Shown here: piece by piece, positions 11,025 through 59,515 of the stretch
Position numbering within the stretch: the stretch's first letter is position 1
How the letters are laid out: every line of letters begins with the position of its first letter
Source of the DNA: an uncultured Alphaproteobacteria bacterium
GTDB lineage: Bacteria; Pseudomonadota; Alphaproteobacteria; Rs-D84
Direction: 5' to 3'
DNA length: 64,000 nucleotides
Assembly: GCA_947175875.1 (NCBI GenBank)
Contig: CAMWON010000001.1
Coordinates: 207,809-271,808, forward strand
Translations under genes and position numbers: made by a program
The notes under the pieces: model-generated
Seen by the model: the letters and a program-made list of their open reading frames with translations, nothing else
Databases searched by the model: none
Told to the model about the DNA's origin: nothing

Positions 11025-11240
11025 TGAATGTGCAGTGATGCGCGTTCGGGGCTGTAGCAAGCCTTATCGTTGCGGTGCGGAAAGCATCGTTAATCTGATG
11101 TTTCGGTGCTTTTTCGCGCCGATATTATCCCTGACCTGGTCGGGGAGCCGTTTGTTATACATTGAAGACAACGGAATCTTTCAACGATAGATTTGCTAAC
11201 TCCCCGGCCGCCAAAATTTTGGTGGCCACGATTTTTTATA
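11025..11240 (+). ncRNA. Structured leader RNA, divergent member of the repeated RNA family (copy F)
   Basis: This leader sits between a strong promoter and the gene at 11262. It keeps the main landmarks of the family seen at 17.0, 46.1 and 59.4 kb, with different bases in the stems: a helix enclosing a tatacattgaa loop (CCGTTTGT with ACAACGG), a hairpin with TCCC(T)GACC pairing to GGTC(G)GGGA at 11128-11146, a downstream CTCCCC (11200-11205) that can instead pair with GGGGAG (11142-11147), and a final GGCCGCC / GGTGGCC hairpin followed by a T6 run. The order of the outer helices differs from the other copies, so membership is probable rather than certain. Function is unknown. Confidence 0.55.
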
Positions 11241-11261: not shown

Positions 11262-11948
11262 ATGAAATTCAAGAACTTAATCTTGTCTGCGTGTGTTGTT
11301 GCAGCAAACGCCGGGGGTGTGATGCCGGCACGGGCTGTAACGTATACGTGCAAAAATCCTACATTGTCATATTGTAGCGGCTCGGCGACGGAGGCAAAAA
11401 ATAATTGCGTCTCTGGAACAAAGGTGTGCTATCAGCAAGAAGACAGTGCCGGTTATCTTACCGTTCCTACAATATATACGTCATGTTCGACGTGCCCAAC
11501 GGGTTACACTCTAACGACGACGACCGTCGATGTATGTTCCAATGTGTCAAACCCGCCGACGATAAAAAAGTGTTGTGCGCCGTGCAGCAACTGCACCAGC
11601 GACACCACATGGACGTCTTATGACGCAAAAAGAGAGGTCAGGGTCACGCGCAGCTGCGATTGTGGCACGTGCAAGGAGACAAACAGTTATCGCTGCAAAT
11701 CCGGATATTACGGCAGTGGCTTTAGCAGTTCAAATTGCACCAAGTGTCCCGGAGATGGCCTGACCATTGGTCAAAGCGGTGCCGGCAGTATTATTATCTC
11801 AAAATGTTTTGTGAATAATGGCACGGATATTACTGGCAATTATGACTATACGGAACCGTGTTATTATAAGAATGATCCACTTGTTATCGATCCAATTGAT
11901 CCGGGTGGATTTGAACCAATAAAGCCTGGTGATTTGATTAATCCTTAA
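11262..11948 (+). CDS. Secreted cysteine-rich protein
   Basis: 228 residues from ATG 11262, chosen because aaaggggg lies just upstream and a signal peptide (ending ARA) starts here. The mature protein has many cysteines in short CxxC-type spacing, for example SCSTCPTGYT, CCAPCSNC, CDCGTC and CTKCPGDG, and ends in a proline/aspartate-rich tail. This resembles small disulfide-rich extracellular repeats; similar segments occur in the partial gene at the right edge of the window. No enzymatic motif is visible. It is probably exported and disulfide-bonded at the cell surface. It is preceded by a long structured leader RNA. Confidence 0.75.
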   Translation: MKFKNLILSACVVAANAGGVMPARAVTYTCKNPTLSYCSGSATEAKNNCVSGTKVCYQQEDSAGYLTVPTIYTSCSTCPTGYTLTTTTVDVCSNVSNPPTIKKCCAPCSNCTSDTTWTSYDAKREVRVTRSCDCGTCKETNSYRCKSGYYGSGFSSSNCTKCPGDGLTIGQSGAGSIIISKCFVNNGTDITGNYDYTEPCYYKNDPLVIDPIDPGGFEPIKPGDLINP

Positions 11949-16971: not shown

Positions 16972-17010
16972 ATGGATTTGTATTCGCAAATAGGTTAATG
17001 TACCGATTGT

Positions 17011-17196
17011 AATAGGGAACCTATTATGCGAGATTAGTACTCTCGCTCAACAACCGCCCTGCGCAGGCGTAAAATGCCAATCCCATTTCGGGGGTTGGAA
17101 GCGGTGAATATATTGAATAAGCCGATAGCATGTTGTTGTGCGAAGTACTAAGTCCAGCCCCCGCCCTGTATTACATGGCGGCTTTTATATTTTTTT
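17011..17196 (+). ncRNA. Structured RNA of the repeated family, copy A1
   Basis: No protein frame fits this interval. Pairings visible in order: a small hairpin (AATAGG/CCTATT); P1 GCGAGA/TCTCGC with loop TTAGTAC (17034-17040); P2 CAACAAC (17048-17054) with GTTGTTG (17132-17138); a hairpin ending in ggcg then taaaa; P4 CCAATCCC with GGGGTTGG (17091-17098); P5 enclosing gaatatattgaata. The P1 loop is complementary to GTACTAA at 17145-17151, a pseudoknot. TCCAGCCCCC (17153-17162) can pair with GGGGGTTGGA in competition with P4, and abuts a CCGCC/GGCGG hairpin with a T-rich run. Function unknown. Confidence 0.75.
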
Positions 17197-17255
17197 GTGG
17201 TGCATATTATTATGGAATTGGGGACCGCCGAAAAATATAATCAAGACGTGGCTGA

Positions 17256-17447
17256 GTAATGGTCCCCATTACAAGAACGAGGAGTAGAAACCTCTAATAC
17301 ACGATCGCCTGTGATATGTGGGCGTTAAACTTCCAACTTGTCGGTTGGAGGCGGGCTCTTATATATTGAAAAGGTCCGAACAATTCATCGTGTATTGTTT
17401 TTCTACCCTCCAACCACCATTATTTCTCTGGTGGCTTGATTTTTTTT
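17256..17447 (+). ncRNA. Structured RNA of the repeated family, copy A2 (leader of the small protein at 17473)
   Basis: This second tandem copy has the same helix order as A1 but different bases. P1 is GAGG/CCTC with loop AGTAGAAA, and the loop pairs with TTTCTAC at 17400-17406. P2 is AATACACGAT with ATCGTGTATT (10 bp). P4 is CCAAC with GTTGG. The loop reads atatattgaaaa. GGTTGGAGG (17343-17351) can alternatively pair with CCTCCAACC (17407-17415), whose end overlaps a CCACC/GGTGG terminator hairpin with T8 (17440-17447). A TATAAT at 17236-17241 lies at a suitable distance upstream. It ends 25 bp before the small gene at 17473. Confidence 0.75.
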
Positions 17448-17472: not shown

Positions 17473-17751
17473 ATGAAAAAAAATACCGCAGCAGCCTCGT
17501 TCGTGTCGAACGCCGAAAACAATTCCATTACACCCGACACAAGTATTCCGGAGGCCGAATTCCCGGCGCCGCTTATTTACAAGCTGTCGGAATTTTACCG
17601 CCACTATCCGAATTATCCGACGGGTATCGTTGAAATCGCCGTTTTGGCGCGTCTGCTGCATACGGAACTGGACAAGTTTTTGCATCGGCCTCATAAACAG
17701 GTAACGCAAATATACTTTGACAGCGATGTTGCGGATAATCACAGGGTCTAA
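17473..17751 (+). CDS. Small conserved protein following the structured-RNA array
   Basis: 92 residues from ATG 17473 (aagggg upstream). The C-terminal half, LIYKLSEFYRHYPNYPTG...LARLLHTELDKF..RPHKQVT, is clearly paralogous to the 78-residue protein at 46835, which also follows an array of the same RNA family; the N-terminal ~35 residues are low-complexity and not conserved. It looks like a compact, mainly helical, slightly basic cytoplasmic protein. No known domain was recognised. Binding to the adjacent RNA is possible but is only a guess based on position. Confidence 0.75.
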   Translation: MKKNTAAASFVSNAENNSITPDTSIPEAEFPAPLIYKLSEFYRHYPNYPTGIVEIAVLARLLHTELDKFLHRPHKQVTQIYFDSDVADNHRV

Positions 17752-20075: not shown

Positions 20076-20165
20076 GGATGGTTGGCAGAGCGGTCGAATG
20101 CGGCGGTCTTGAAAACCGTTGAGGGTGCAAGCCCTCCGGGGGTTCGAATCCCTCACCATCCGCCA
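20076..20165 (+). tRNA. tRNA-Ser (anticodon TGA)
   Basis: 90 nt with a long variable arm and encoded CCA. Acceptor stem GGATGGT pairs with ACCATCC; anticodon TGA at 20110-20112; T arm GGGTTCGAATCCC. Reads UCA and related Ser codons. The last bases of the gene are the first bases of the 135-bp repeat described next. Confidence 0.97.
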
Positions 20166-20196
20166 GGAATATGCCCGCCGCATGGCGGGTTTTATA

Positions 20197-20225
20197 TTGA
20201 TTTTTACGTGCGTTTATGATATAAT
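20197..20225 (+). promoter_or_regulatory. Promoter for the transpeptidase-like effector gene
   Basis: TTGATT (20197-20202) and perfect TATAAT (20220-20225), 17-bp spacing. Confidence 0.75.
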
Positions 20226-20241
20226 ATAAGCCAAGAATAAA

Positions 20242-20292
20242 GGCGGCATTTGTCGCCGTTTTTTATTGTCCCGCCGCGCGCGGGCTTTTTTT
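20242..20292 (+). terminator. Tandem terminator-like hairpins inside the effector leader
   Basis: Two consecutive hairpins with T-runs: GGCGGC/GTCGCC followed by T6 (20242-20265), and CCCGC/GCGGG followed by T7 (20270-20292). They lie after the promoter and before the ribosome-binding site, so full-length transcription of the gene requires read-through or antitermination. Confidence 0.65.
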
Positions 20293-20316
20293 ATTTACAT
20301 CAAAGGAAAAAATAAT

Positions 20317-23001: not shown

Positions 23002-23049
23002 ATTTATAAATTCTGGTATGGGAAATTGTGCAAATCGATACCTGGCCGG

Positions 23050-23184
23050 CAGGAATATGTCCGCCGCATGGCGGGTTTTATATTGATTTTTACGTGCGTT
23101 TATGATATAATATAAATCAAGAATAAAGGCGGCATTTGTCGCCGTTTTTTATTGCACCGCCGCGCGCGGGCTTTTTTTATTTAC
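23050..23184 (+). repeat. 135-bp direct repeat, copy 2 (promoter + tandem hairpins)
   Basis: Same unit as 20164-20298 with 5 substitutions, including the same TTGATT-17 bp-TATAAT promoter (23083-23111) and both terminator-like hairpins. It ends 15 bp before the lysozyme-domain gene start. Confidence 0.9.
23083..23111 (+). promoter_or_regulatory. Promoter for the lysozyme-domain effector gene
   Basis: TTGATT and TATAAT with 17-bp spacing, identical to the promoter at 20197-20225. Confidence 0.75.
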
Positions 23185-45831: not shown

Positions 45832-45914
45832 CTGGACCGCCACGCATACGCTCGCGGTGACAATGGAGCTGGGCTCGCTGTCATTGCGAGGGGCGGCAGC
45901 CCCGCGGCAATCCA
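45832..45914. repeat. MITE-like palindromic repeat, copy a
   Basis: An 83-bp unit with the core gtcattgcgag..cagccccgcggcaatcca. Nearly identical to 46296-46379 and sharing its right half with 45944-46026. No coding sequence. Such units built around gcaatcca/tggattgc occur in many bacterial genomes. Confidence 0.8.
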
Positions 45915-45943
45915 ACATGTAAAGCGGCGGTGGCATTTATCAA

Positions 45944-46026
45944 CTGGATTGCTTCACTTCGTTCGCAATGACAGTCGTGCTTGAATCGCTGTCATTGCGA
46001 GGGGCGGCAGCCCCGCGGCAATCCAG
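45944..46026. repeat. MITE-like palindromic repeat, copy b
   Basis: 83 bp with perfect 9-bp terminal inverted repeats (CTGGATTGC / GCAATCCAG) and an internal imperfect palindrome around ttcgcaatgaca and tgtcattgcgag. The left half differs from copies a and c. Confidence 0.85.
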
Positions 46027-46032
46027 TTTTAT

Positions 46033-46061
46033 TTGCTTTCCGAGATTTTTTAGGATATAGT
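46033..46061 (+). promoter_or_regulatory. Promoter of structured RNA copy B
   Basis: TTGCTT (46033-46038), 17-bp spacer, TATAGT (46056-46061). The same promoter stretch, right after a MITE copy, precedes copy C. Confidence 0.65.
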
Positions 46062-46066
46062 ACTTA

Positions 46067-46240
46067 CTGCAGCGTTGTGTTAGCGCTGCAAGGTTTAGCA
46101 ACCTTTTACACTCGGTCCGGAAGGACTTTAAACATTCACTCCACCCAAGGTTGGAGGGTCGCCAAATAAATTGAATAGGCGACACTATGAGTGTATAGAT
46201 TGCTAACCTCCAACCGCTTAAATTATTTAGTGGTTTATAA
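46067..46240 (+). ncRNA. Structured RNA of the repeated family, copy B
   Basis: Helix order as in copy A1. An initial GCAGCG/CGCTGC hairpin; P1 AAGG/CCTT with loop TTTAGCAA, pairing to TTGCTAA (46200-46206); P2 ACACTC with GAGTGT; a GTCC/GGAC hairpin then tttaaac; P4 CTCCACC with GGTTGGAG; P5 GTCGCC/GGCGAC closing aaataaattgaata. GGTTGGAGG (46149-46157) may instead pair with CCTCCAACC (46207-46215), which overlaps the AACCGCT/AGTGGTT terminal hairpin. No T-run follows, so termination here would be weaker. A CCCCGC/GCGGGG hairpin lies 30 bp further on. Confidence 0.75.
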
Positions 46241-46295
46241 CACCAATCACTATAAAAATGCATGTCTCCCCGCTTCGGCGGGGGTTGTCTTTTGG

Positions 46296-46379
46296 CTGGA
46301 CCGCCACGCATACGCTCGCGGTGACAATGGAGCTGGGCTCGCTGTCATTGCGAGGGGCGGCAGCCCCGCGGCAATCCAG
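46296..46379. repeat. MITE-like palindromic repeat, copy c
   Basis: Nearly identical to copy a at 45832. The ~40 bp to its right (ttttatttgctttc, then gattttttaggatatagtac) match those right of copy b, so the MITE and the adjacent promoter appear to have been duplicated together. Confidence 0.8.
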
Positions 46380-46385
46380 TTTTAT

Positions 46386-46414
46386 TTGCTTTCTGAGATT
46401 TTTTAGGATATAGT
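46386..46414 (+). promoter_or_regulatory. Promoter of structured RNA copy C
   Basis: TTGCTT, 17-bp spacer, TATAGT, identical to the promoter of copy B except for one base in the spacer. Confidence 0.65.
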
Positions 46415-46420
46415 ACTTAC

Positions 46421-46605
46421 TGCAACGGGGATTCCGTTGCCCGAGAATACAGACTCGGTCATTGGTTGCCTGCACAGGCGTAAAACTTTCAACCCTTATC
46501 GGGGTTGGGAGGTTGGCTGAATATATTGAATAGGCCAACACATACCAATGATGTGTCTGTAAGCTCCCGCCCCGGTCTTCTCAACAATGATTTTGGCGGT
46601 TGCAA
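46421..46605 (+). ncRNA. Structured RNA of the repeated family, copy C
   Basis: GCAACGG/CCGTTGC hairpin; P1 CCGAG/CTCGG with loop AATACAGA, pairing to TCTGTA (46556-46561); P2 CATTGGT/ACCAATG; GCCT/AGGC hairpin then taaaa; P4 CAACCC with GGGTTG; P5 TTGGC/GCCAA closing gaatatattgaata. GGGAG (46507-46511) can pair with CTCCC (46564-46568), which overlaps a CCGCC/GGCGG hairpin. The compensatory change from CTCCAACC to CTCCC with matching partner supports the long-range helix. The hairpin is followed by ttgcaatta, which is also the -35 region of copy D. Confidence 0.75.
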
Positions 46606-46630: not shown

Positions 46631-46817
46631 ATTGTAATGGGCATTGCCCCTGTTGCAAAAGTGCGAGCTAAAATCTCGCTTAGTAGAACCGCCTGTGCAG
46701 GCGTAAAATGCTCCACCACCCGCTGGTTGGAGTCGGCGAATATATTGAATAAGCCGGGATAAGTTCTACTATCATTTTAGCTCCAACCATCTTTCTTTAG
46801 ATGGTTTTTGTTTTTAT
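46631..46817 (+). ncRNA. Structured RNA of the repeated family, copy D (leader of the small protein at 46835)
   Basis: GGGC/GCCC hairpin; P1 GCGAG/CTCGC with loop CTAAAAT, pairing to ATTTTAG (46774-46780); P2 AGTAGAAC/GTTCTACT; CGCCT/AGGCG hairpin then taaaa; P4 CTCCACC with GGTTGGAG; P5 CGGC/GCCG closing gaatatattgaata. GGTTGGAG (46725-46732) can also pair with CTCCAACC (46781-46788), whose AACC is part of the terminator AACCATC/GATGGTT followed by a T-rich run. It ends 18 bp before the small gene. Confidence 0.78.
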
Positions 46818-46834: not shown

Positions 46835-47071
46835 ATGGCAAAAAACACTGATAACACCAATATGCTGGCGGAAAATGAATATCCGTCTGCGCTGATATAT
46901 AAACTCTGTGAATTTTATAACAAGTATCCCGATTATAAAACCGGGATTATGGATATTTCCATTCTGGCGCGGATTGTGCATACCGAACTGGAAAAATTTA
47001 CGCGTCGCCCGCACAAACAGGTGACCGAGGTGTTTTTCGACCGCGAGCCGCCAACCGCCCGCTTCGTTTAA
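46835..47071 (+). CDS. Small conserved protein following the structured-RNA array
   Basis: 78 residues from ATG 46835 (ggggg upstream). Paralogue of the 92-residue protein at 17473: LIYKLCEFYNKYPDYKTG, LARIVHTELEKF and RRPHKQVTEVFFD align without gaps. The N-terminal ~20 residues are not conserved. Probably a small helical cytoplasmic protein with a basic patch (RRPHKQ). Function unknown; it follows three tandem structured RNAs, just as the paralogue follows two. Confidence 0.75.
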   Translation: MAKNTDNTNMLAENEYPSALIYKLCEFYNKYPDYKTGIMDISILARIVHTELEKFTRRPHKQVTEVFFDREPPTARFV

Positions 47072-48137: not shown

Positions 48138-49097
48138 ATGGCTAATGTTGTGCTGGATTCTTTACTGCGCCCGCTGGAGGAGTTTTATAAACCCTCGTTC
48201 GTGGAAGAAATCGCAATCAATCACGCGGGCGAGGTCTGGATGCGCCTGCACGGCGCGCGCGTTCCGTGGGTTGCATACCAGGCCGAGAATTTAAGCAAAC
48301 AATACCTTATCGACTTAATCCATACCGTCGCCAATATTTACGAGCGGCCCTTTGACCCGACGCACGGCGTGCCGGTCGTATATGCGACGTTGCCCGGCAA
48401 TCATCGTTTTTCAGCCATTGCGGGCCCGAATGTTCAATATGATGAAAATGATGTCACGGGTGGTGTCGCGATGAATATCCGCGGTGGAAACGCCCCGGAC
48501 ACCAGTTTTGAGAATTATCATCTGAAACGTGGCGAGGATTTGTTAAAGGTAAAGCCCCGCGATAACGTCCGTCCCGACGACCCGTACGACAGATTGATGC
48601 AGGCCATAAACGACGGCAGTCCCATTTTAATCAGTGGCGCGACCGCAACCGGAAAAACGACGTTCTTGAACCATATGTTAAAGTTAATCGACCAAAACAG
48701 CCGTGTCATTACCGTCGAAGATGCCCGCGAAATCCGCGTGCCCCAGGCGAACCGGGTGCACTTCGTTTTGTCGCGTACGGAACAGAATAATGATTTTAAT
48801 TATGCGCGCCTGTTGGATTTGGTGGTGCGTATGACGCCCGACGTCATTATCGGCGGGGAAATATCAACCGATAATGCATCCGTCCTGTGGGAAATGCTGG
48901 GGACGGGTCACGACCACTTTTATACGACCATTCACGCCGAAAGTGCCGAGGCTGCATACGCCGCGTTCGCGGACCGTATCCTGCATACTCAGCCGGCGTA
49001 TAACCGCACTGAACTGATTACGGAAATGAGAAAGAAAATCCGCGTCGTGCAATTATCGCGTGACGGCGCCCTGCGCGCCGTGACCGAGGTTGTATAG
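48138..49097 (+). CDS. virB11: VirB11/TrbB-type traffic ATPase
   Basis: 319 residues. C-terminal RecA-like ATPase domain: Walker A GATATGKTT, Asp-box VEDAREI, Walker B region PDVIIGGEI, and His-box TTIHAES, in the order of VirB11 family enzymes. The N-terminal domain of ~135 residues is consistent in size. It would power a type IV secretion or DNA-transfer system at the inner membrane. No other unmistakable T4SS genes are adjacent, so it is an orphan here. Confidence 0.85.
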   Translation: MANVVLDSLLRPLEEFYKPSFVEEIAINHAGEVWMRLHGARVPWVAYQAENLSKQYLIDLIHTVANIYERPFDPTHGVPVVYATLPGNHRFSAIAGPNVQYDENDVTGGVAMNIRGGNAPDTSFENYHLKRGEDLLKVKPRDNVRPDDPYDRLMQAINDGSPILISGATATGKTTFLNHMLKLIDQNSRVITVEDAREIRVPQANRVHFVLSRTEQNNDFNYARLLDLVVRMTPDVIIGGEISTDNASVLWEMLGTGHDHFYTTIHAESAEAAYAAFADRILHTQPAYNRTELITEMRKKIRVVQLSRDGALRAVTEVV

Positions 49098-57073: not shown

Positions 57074-57199
57074 GCCGACCGACCCGAACACGCCCGCGCG
57101 GAAGCCGGAGTTGTTCCGAACGTTGTTACCGCAGTTGTTCGCGCAGTTCGACCTGCAATCGGCAACCGAGCCGTTGGCGTTCTGGAACACCCAACGCGA
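57074..57199 (-). repeat. DGR template repeat (TR)
   Basis: 126 bp matching the variable repeat at 57390-57515 with 8 mismatches. Read on the coding (minus) strand, all 8 mismatched positions are adenines in TR: one in a CAG codon and seven in AAC codons. TR is rich in AAC/CAG codons at these sites, typical of templates designed for adenine mutagenesis (AAC can become 15 other residues' codons but not a stop). It lies between the VP gene and the accessory/RT genes and is not in a gene. Confidence 0.95.
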
Positions 57200-57383: not shown

Positions 57384-57836
57384 TCAATTGCCGACCGACC
57401 CGAACACGCCCGCGCGGAAGCCGGAGTTGTTCCGAACGTTGCTACCGCAGTAGCGCGCGCAGTTCGACCTGCAATCGGCAACCGAGCCGGCGGCGCTCAG
57501 GAACACCCAACGCGAGTTTGCAGGGTGGGTCATCTGGCACCAGCAATATCTGCCGGTTCTTTCACCGCCGGTGGCAATTTCGCCGTTTGAATCACGCAAT
57601 TCTTCAACCGCGGTGTTTGATGAACCGCTGGTATCGACGCATGTGGCAATTCCCCAAACTGTTCCGTATGGAAATGTTGCCGACCATTCAAACAAATCCG
57701 TATTATAAGAGTGGTTCGTGCCCCCGATTATCGGGTCCAGCACGATGGCCAGTGTATCGTCCGTGGCACACATTGTGGTGGCCCCGGCCGACGCACAGAA
57801 CATTGCAATTAAAACACTCAGTATTACTTTCTTCAT
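57384..57836 (-). CDS. DGR variable protein (secreted, Cys-rich)
   Basis: 150 residues from ATG 57836 (ggggg upstream). Signal peptide to about ASAGA (residue 19). The mature protein has Cys23, 66, 98, 100, 122, 126 and 130, including CWC. The VR encodes residues 108-149, which is the C-terminus. Compared with the TR-encoded version, residues 113, 114, 116, 128, 129 and 132 are changed (Q/N to L, S, A, R, Y, S), all through A-to-other changes. It should be exported, with the variable surface at its C-terminal end. Its fold is not obviously the C-type lectin seen in classical DGR proteins. Confidence 0.9.
   Translation of the reverse strand: MKKVILSVLIAMFCASAGATTMCATDDTLAIVLDPIIGGTNHSYNTDLFEWSATFPYGTVWGIATCVDTSGSSNTAVEELRDSNGEIATGGERTGRYCWCQMTHPANSRWVFLSAAGSVADCRSNCARYCGSNVRNNSGFRAGVFGSVGN
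57390..57515 (-). repeat. DGR variable repeat (VR)
   Basis: 126 bp at the 3' end of the variable-protein gene, ending 3 bp before the stop codon. 118 of 126 positions match TR (57074-57199); the 8 differences all lie opposite TR adenines on the coding strand. Outside the 126 bp the two sequences diverge at once at both ends, so the boundaries are sharp. Confidence 0.95.
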
Positions 57837-58361: not shown

Positions 58362-59321
58362 TTAATCAGATATGTGATACGTGCCTGCGGCGGACTTTAT
58401 GTTCATAACGCCGCGCGCCGCACCTGGTAAAAAGTTGATATAACACACACCGTCCGACGTCTTGATGTTCAGCGCCGGCGTCGTCAATTTTTCCGCCCAC
58501 AACGGCCATGTCTGGCCGCCGCTCGCGCGCAGCTCTGTCTTGCCGTGCGGGCACAGTTCCGCGCATGTCCCCAGCCCCGTGTATTTCAGGCCATCCTCGC
58601 ACAGAATTGCGCACATGTTATTCTTTGACTGGCCCGCCGTGCAATCCGCGTTCAGCCAATATGTCGCATATCCCGTGGCGCATACCGCGTTTTCCGGCGT
58701 GGTCAGCGTCGCCGCATCAACTGTTATGTCGTGAAAGTTTTCCGGACAGTCGCCGCGCGTTAGCGCCGTGCACTCGCCGTCGGACAGGTACTGGCCCGCC
58801 CCGCACAGTTTTGCGCCGTATGCGACCAAAACACCGTTGTATATGGGTGTTAAAAATTCCGGTAATTCATATGCGTTATAAGAGTTCATACATTCCTGCA
58901 ACGCGGCCGACGGCGATGAAAATGTCGATTGGCCGATTGGTGTCTTGTATGACCCCTCCGGACAGCGCCCGGGGGACTTTTTCTGGCATGTGCCGGCGGC
59001 AAATTGCTCGTCTGCGGCGCACAATGTCGCGCCGTATTTAACCAGAACGCCGCTGTAAATCGCATGAAACATATCCGGCAGCTGCTGCTTGTCATATGCG
59101 TTCATGCACTGGTTCTTTAATGTCATTGCCGAATAAGTTGCCGATGCGATGACCGTTTCATAATATCCGGACGGACATTCGTTTTGCACCTTGTCGATGC
59201 ATGTGCCATTGCTCATCTGTTGGCCGTCTTCGCACAACCGTGCGCCGAACCGCACCACGGTGGCGGCATTCGCCGTCCCCTGGATCACAGCAATCGCCAA
59301 TAAAAAAATTACGCCTCTCAT
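58362..59321 (-). CDS. Secreted protein with three Cys-rich repeats, first gene of the DGR operon
   Basis: 319 residues from ATG 59321 (aggga upstream), where a signal peptide begins (to NAA). About residues 23-225 are three units of ~70 residues, each with VxYGAxLC, then a short CxxxxxxxCP, then a stretch ending PExFLTPIYNGV-like. A Cys-rich tail follows. No enzymatic motif. Probably a surface or extracellular protein, perhaps displaying or anchoring the two small proteins encoded behind it. A structured leader RNA (59342-59515) precedes it. Confidence 0.75.
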   Translation of the reverse strand: MRGVIFLLAIAVIQGTANAATVVRFGARLCEDGQQMSNGTCIDKVQNECPSGYYETVIASATYSAMTLKNQCMNAYDKQQLPDMFHAIYSGVLVKYGATLCAADEQFAAGTCQKKSPGRCPEGSYKTPIGQSTFSSPSAALQECMNSYNAYELPEFLTPIYNGVLVAYGAKLCGAGQYLSDGECTALTRGDCPENFHDITVDAATLTTPENAVCATGYATYWLNADCTAGQSKNNMCAILCEDGLKYTGLGTCAELCPHGKTELRASGGQTWPLWAEKLTTPALNIKTSDGVCYINFLPGAARGVMNIKSAAGTYHISD

Positions 59322-59341: not shown

Positions 59342-59515
59342 AAAAGTAAACCACCGGATACATTGGGTGGTTGGAGGTTCGAAACTATATAAGAAGCAAT
59401 AGCGGGTTTATTCAATATATTCACCGCCCTCCAACCAACGGTTGGAGATGTTTATTGTCCACCACGGACACTTCTTATACAGGTTCCGACGCCTGGCCGG
59501 GCAACACGCCTCGGC
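59342..59515 (-). ncRNA. Structured RNA of the repeated family, copy E (leader of the DGR operon)
   Basis: On the minus strand: GCCG/CGGC hairpin; P1 CAGG/CCTG with loop cgtcggaa, pairing to TTTCG (one G-U); P2 TATAAGAAG with CTTCTTATA (9 bp); GTCC/GGAC hairpin then aataaac; P4 CTCCAACC/GGTTGGAG; P5 GCGG/CCGC-type helix around gaatatattgaata. GGTTGGAGG can also pair with the downstream CCTCCAACC, which overlaps the final AACCACC/GGTGGTT hairpin. This is the same order as copies A1-D. It ends 21 bp before the first operon gene. Confidence 0.78.

Follow-up and report, generated by a model that had tools for sequence, protein, structure and literature searches.

Two adjoining structured elements, A1 and A2, in a 64-kb stretch of alphaproteobacterial DNA (the window) raise the question of what kind of RNA keeps its helices while changing the bases that form them. 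The sequence-only reading had assigned both to an undescribed family with seven copies in the window, and had proposed a covariance model and a covariation check. We built such a model (R1) from 57 relatives and, together with direct parsing of A7, it bore out all seven copies (Table 1). R1 was trained on A1, A2, A5 and A6, among others, which makes their scores partly a product of construction; A3, A4 and A7 were not used for training. Sequence and folds also confirmed the positions of A1 and A2 and the helices proposed for them, and both are more stable than their shuffles (z of −3.8 and −3.6, respectively).

From 5′ to 3′, the element consists of P0, P1 with a1 in its loop, the b1 strand, P3, an A-run, X, Y, P5, P6, strand a and Z, followed by an intrinsic terminator, a ribosome-binding site (RBS) and a start codon. 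Putative −10-like hexamers, read by eye, directly precede P0 in many copies. Strand a1 pairs with strand a, located directly before Z, and b1 pairs with the P6 loop. This corrects the earlier proposal of a P2 helix: the partner of the strand called P2 is the loop of a further hairpin, P6, of the CTAT/ATAG type. Upstream X and downstream Z both pair with Y, and the lowest three pairs of the terminator use Z bases. The start codon, with its RBS, lies a median of about 50 nt 3′ of Z, and each copy is probably the 5′ leader of the next gene.

Covariation exceeded that of all 500 shuffles. In the alignment of 57 compact copies, 92.7% of cells are paired compared to 76.5 ± 0.6 in shuffles, 218 cells show double changes (61 ± 6 in shuffles; the set covers the P1-loop pseudoknot, Y:Z, P5, P1 and P6), and the covariation score is 0.457 against 0.162; no shuffle reached any of these values. 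Sliding the partners by 1–3 columns reduced pairing to 35–52%. Pairing is highest for Y:Z (97%), followed by the P1-loop pseudoknot (93%), P5 (92%), the terminator helix (90.5%), P1 and P6 (87% each) and X:Y (84%). The P1-loop pseudoknot, P5, P6 and Y:Z covary above every shuffle.

Table 1. Leader copies, their parts and downstream genes in the window
Feature	Position	Strand	Remarks
Copy A1	17010-17196	+	R1 match 17029-17189, E 4e-13
A1 P0 hairpin	17010-17026	+	Presumed transcript 5′ end; direct sequence, fold
A1 P1 hairpin	17028-17046	+	Loop TTAGTACT (17034-17041), a1-like address
A1 b1-like address strand	17048-17054	+	CAACAAC, 5′ strand of P2
A1 P3 hairpin	17055-17069	+	Followed by conserved taaaa
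A1 X strand	17077-17084	+	5′ arm of P4; competes with Z for Y
A1 Y strand	17089-17099	+	Pairs with X or Z; C4/sRNA-Xcc1-like module begins here
A1 P5 loop	17106-17119	+	GAATATATTGAATA
A1 P6 hairpin	17128-17141	+	Loop contains b antisense, pairs with CAACAAC
A1 a antisense strand	17144-17151	+	AGTACTAA, 3′ strand of P1-loop pseudoknot
A1 Z strand	17153-17163	+	
A1 intrinsic terminator	17161-17196	+	Overlaps end of Z
Copy A2	17279-17447	+	R1 match 17279-17442, E 2e-16
A2 P1 hairpin	17279-17294	+	a1-like loop GTAGAAA (17284-17290)
A2 b1-like address strand	17296-17305	+	AATACACGAT
A2 P3 hairpin	17306-17324	+	Followed by ttaaa
A2 X strand	17330-17337	+	
A2 Y strand	17343-17351	+	GGTTGGAGG
A2 P5 hairpin	17352-17378	+	Loop variant TTATATATTGAAAA
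A2 P6 hairpin	17379-17399	+	b antisense in loop
A2 a antisense strand	17400-17406	+	TTTCTAC
A2 Z strand	17407-17415	+	CCTCCAACC
A2 intrinsic terminator	17413-17447	+	17413-17415 common to Z
Copy A3	46090-46241	+	R1 82 bits, E 2e-17
Copy A4	46442-46583	+	R1 61 bits, E 1e-12
Copy A5	46663-46812	+	R1 92.5 bits, E 7e-20
Copy A6	59343-59495	-	R1 128 bits, E 4e-28; RF02221 36.4 bits, E 4e-5
Copy A7	11050-11236	+	R1 25.9 bits, E 2e-4; helices confirmed by direct parsing
Gene 3′ of A2	17473-17751	+	92-aa protein; paralogue follows A5
Gene 3′ of A5	46835-47071	+	78-aa paralogue of 17473-17751
ORF presumably led by A6	58362-59321	-	Secreted-type
ORF presumably led by A7	11262-11948		

The window comes from a 953-kb Candidatus Enterousia assembly; reduced genomes have been described for its order, Rs-D84 (PMC12306168). 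R1 matches 69 places in this genome at E ≤ 0.05 (E is below 1e-6 for 56), and leader copies number about 55–60. We parsed 55 copies into all helices, including several weak R1 matches and three found only by the RF02221 model. Hundreds of copies occur in related genomes. Near-identical elements are present in Candidatus Enterousia genomes and related gut and termite-gut alphaproteobacterial assemblies, and 29 of 385 alphaproteobacterial genomes have R1 matches, the non-Enterousia ones being mostly small (1.1–2.2 Mb). The P5 loop, on closer reading, is the 14-nt GAAUA-UANN-GAAUA; its 14-mer occurs 25 times in the own genome, each time inside the same leader architecture, and never in a reversed control. 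It was found in 74 of 147 relatives. The relatives that we examined retain the P1 pseudoknot, P4, P6, Y:Z and the terminator, with the 14-nt loop in most of them exchanged for an (R)AAUA/(R)AAUA internal loop and an apical helix. In P5 of distant homologues (L210–L213) this internal loop is symmetric, and it may be a protein or ligand site conserved across the family. We considered a loop–loop dimer through the palindrome AATATATT and dropped it, because the variants GAATATANNGAATA are no longer palindromic. The element is also present on six IMG/VR contigs (L056–L061) listed there as viral; a phage search with the window DNA gave no match.

Is the family, then, undescribed? No window copy attains an Rfam gathering score, at relaxed thresholds A1–A5 gave only terminator-like chance matches, and no riboswitch family in Rfam was matched. 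To that extent the sequence-only reading stands, and the RNA is a real structured one; it has, however, distant kin. The 3′ half of the leader (Y-P5-P6-Z) is a distant relative of sRNA-Xcc1 (RF02221), since the RF02221 and R1 models find each other's loci. At E ≤ 10, the RF02221 model picks out 18 candidates in the own genome, most with E < 0.005; the best of them (46.7 bits, E 1.4e-7) does not reach the gathering score of 53 bits. Conversely, a search with R1 recovers RF02221 loci from other Pseudomonadota (E from 4e-6 to 6e-3). The outer helix of sRNA-Xcc1 corresponds to Y:Z and its inner hairpins to P5 (with an AAUA.../GAAUA-like internal loop) and P6, in this order, as seen in full 87-position alignments and reciprocal R1 matches. 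One distant relative of the leader has a full-length sub-threshold RF02221 match, and copy A7 represents an sRNA-Xcc1-like subtype.

The kinship also extends in the 5′ direction. The Rfam model, which has matches in 58 of 398 Pseudomonadota genomes, begins at Y, and RF02221 loci have unannotated P1, PK1, b1/P2 and P3 upstream. Their 5′ region pairs with its own antisense strand at −32.6 kcal/mol and with non-self strands at −23.3 kcal/mol, a difference beyond every permutation. Compared to sRNA-Xcc1, the Enterousia leaders have a short P5 loop and a terminator after Z, have lost the RBS match, and reach about 60 copies per genome. They precede surface-protein and HTH genes, whereas genes 3′ of RF02221 loci include BRO-N, KilA-N, Rha and SymE; a widespread integron cassette has been reported to carry sRNA-Xcc1 ahead of symE (PMC12444791). 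An integron attC site as the identity of our copies was rejected, as they are scattered, lie on both strands and are positioned 5′ of genes.

Taken as a whole, the leader corresponds piece by piece to the c4 locus of phage P1, and C4 antisense RNA of phages P1 and P7 (RF01695; c4-2, RF02944; c4-a1b1 motif) is among its closest known counterparts. The phage P1 record annotates c4, upstream a1/b1, and a2/b2 at the icd RBS. Its a1 (TTGACAG) sits in a hairpin loop and is followed by b1 (GTTAGTG) and X, and the two are complementary to a and to the hairpin-loop b of C4; X:Y amounts to −23.9 kcal/mol. The C4 module itself is closed by a stem and contains two hairpins, the second with b in its loop, strand a before Z, and an unpaired 3′ ACC. 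The common plan is therefore a1 (hairpin loop) - b1 - X - [Y, hairpin, b hairpin, a, Z] - gene, and an unpaired RCC follows Z in both C4 and Enterousia leaders. As in C4, the leaders have upstream a1/b1 complementary to a and b. Unlike C4, they lack a2/b2 at the RBS and have an intrinsic terminator, and instead of an antirepressor-type gene they are followed by genes for secreted Cys-rich, HTH and small unknown proteins. The RF01695 model gave no own-genome match at E ≤ 10. According to Hartmann et al. (1995), cited by PMC5320573, RNase P cleaves C4 at the 5′ boundary of the stem, and RNase P-like determinants are frequent in Enterousia copies (G1-C72 pair in 57/57, R73 in 53/57, U-1 in 34/57). 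The published description of Acinetobacter baumannii Group 1 C4-like RNAs (PMC5320573) presents phage-derived sRNAs rather than leaders that carry a terminator and precede a gene, and contains no address analysis. The leader is not categorically new: it forms a branch of its own among antisense leaders of the C4/sRNA-Xcc1 type, set apart by its terminator and by its heavy multiplication.

Small proteins follow several leaders. The two encoded 3′ of A2 and A5 share LIYKL.EFY..YP.Y.TGI and have no match in Pfam, PHROG or NCBIfam; similar ones are found behind other copies (e.g. C3:19530 and C3:14967).

The strands a1 and b1 behave as addresses. They are complementary in cis in nearly every copy, yet they differ from copy to copy: among 1,485 copy pairs of the own genome, 39 have the same a, 48 the same b and four have both. 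All four of the latter are tandem neighbours, so that 4 of 10 tandem pairs share an address, a result reached in none of 10,000 permutations; outside the address, three of the four are no more alike than background. The remaining six tandem pairs, A1-A2 included, have no common address. Other genomes provide at least two more tandem pairs with a common address (L101 and L070; L118 partly), and in two further genomes none of 310 pairs has one. Copies C1:42113 and C2:27083 are 95% alike outside the address, yet their a differs on both strands. Non-tandem pairs have no common address against about one expected; since this absence alone is not significant, the case for private addresses rests on the tandem-neighbour result. 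Recognition between transcripts would call for such a pattern, and a role confined to internal structure would not. Helices are thus kept by different bases, as had been noticed from the sequence, but they are best explained as address elements rather than merely drifting stems. In tandem arrays (e.g. A1-A2 and A4-A5), a second subtype with a GCGAG-type P1 and a GCA/TGC P6 tends to be the upstream member and does not have its neighbour's address.

How might such a leader act? A U-tract after Z (at least five T in six bases) is found in 50 of 55 own copies, compared to 1 of 27 RF02221 loci. The leader has the makings of an attenuator: a hairpin with a U-tract, and an alternative helix that uses the base of its stem. 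The energy difference between Y:Z and X:Y plus terminator is −0.8 ± 3.8 kcal/mol (55 copies); the two states are nearly isoenergetic, as expected for a switch. We consider it fairly likely that, in each leader, an antisense element of the C4 type has become a transcription attenuator that is autoregulated. In the X:Y fold, Z would be free, the terminator would form and the gene would be off. The Y:Z fold may serve as an antiterminator by taking away terminator pairs beside the U-tract. By analogy with P1 c4, Y:Z formation could also allow RNase P to cut at the 5′ end of Y, freeing the antisense module. Free antisense RNA of the same address might then bind a1/b1 of new transcripts, block the cis pairing and tip the choice. 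Secreted Cys-rich proteins, small HTH proteins and small proteins of unknown kind would then each be under feedback specific to their own locus. Of all the steps in this scheme, the direction of control (antisense meaning off) is the least certain. Moreover, a single fold could contain both P2/PK1 and Y:Z, and pairing in cis would then not be what decides the terminator.

Other readings assign the same parts different roles. The copies might be trans-acting sRNAs like the Acinetobacter Group 1 RNAs, each comprising a promoter, P0–P6 and a terminator, with the address aimed at another mRNA and the downstream gene expressed by read-through or from another promoter. Such RNAs are indeed multi-copy and processed (PMC5320573), Northern blot and RACE showed sRNA-Xcc1 of Xanthomonas to be 88 nt long (PMC2996969), and the terminators of our copies are strong. 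However, a second promoter would not fit between Z and start codons placed so tightly after it with an RBS, and the cis complementarity of a1/b1 argues against targets elsewhere; we regard this reading as unlikely. A new metabolite riboswitch, with P1/PK1, P2/P6 and the P5 loop as aptamer and X/Y/Z plus terminator as expression platform, would account for the highly conserved 14-nt loop GAAUAUANNGAAUA, the pseudoknots, the classic antiterminator/terminator overlap and the use of one signal for many genes. Yet an aptamer core would not need pseudoknot strands that are private, fast-changing and common only to tandem neighbours, and both sRNA-Xcc1 homology and C4 anatomy point elsewhere, leaving this explanation quite improbable.

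A classical C4 switch, in which the antisense strand blocks the RBS of the next gene, is a different matter, because it does hold for RF02221 loci of other Pseudomonadota. There, the antisense strand pairs at −21.8 kcal/mol with the RBS of the gene that follows, compared to −17.9 kcal/mol with those of other loci, beyond all permutations, and the 5′ address copies that RBS (the longest stretch in common is 6.93 vs 5.65, above 5,000 permutations). For Enterousia-type copies, by contrast, the corresponding values are −9.15 for self and −8.81 for non-self (n = 138, p 0.04), a negligible difference near background, which brings the reading close to refuted for these copies and makes it highly implausible here. 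The autoregulated attenuator thus remains our preferred interpretation. Its boldest extension is a phase-variation-like system made of RNA alone. Some 60 antisense attenuators, most of them controlling surface proteins, would act independently through private addresses; feedback would stay within a locus or its tandem pair, and each surface protein would be turned on and off without regard to the others. We think this extension rather doubtful.

If this picture is true, sRNA-Xcc1 and C4, two Rfam families not placed in one clan, would be joined by a common full-length architecture, and RF02221 would turn out to describe no more than the 3′ half of a longer leader. sRNA-Xcc1-type RNAs in integron cassettes and prophages would gain a function as well. 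In a genome of less than 1 Mb that keeps about 60 leaders, approximately one per 15 genes, control of surface proteins in reduced symbionts would become directly testable, and the private addresses would constitute a natural set of orthogonal RNA regulators.

The window contains other repeats, too. At 45849-45963, 45960-46074 and 46313-46427, a repeat of about 115 nt that contains CGCTGTCATTGCGAGGGGCGGCAGCCCCGCGGCAATCCA (identity up to 90%) interleaves with copies A3 and A4 and looks REP-type. A 139-nt repeat (96% identical; 20160-20298 and 23046-23184) covers two ORF starts along with sites that resemble terminators and promoters, and a 126-nt repeat (94% identical) occurs at 57074-57199 and 57390-57515, 316 nt apart. 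The ORF at 48138-49097 resembles, by eye, a VirB11-type secretion ATPase.
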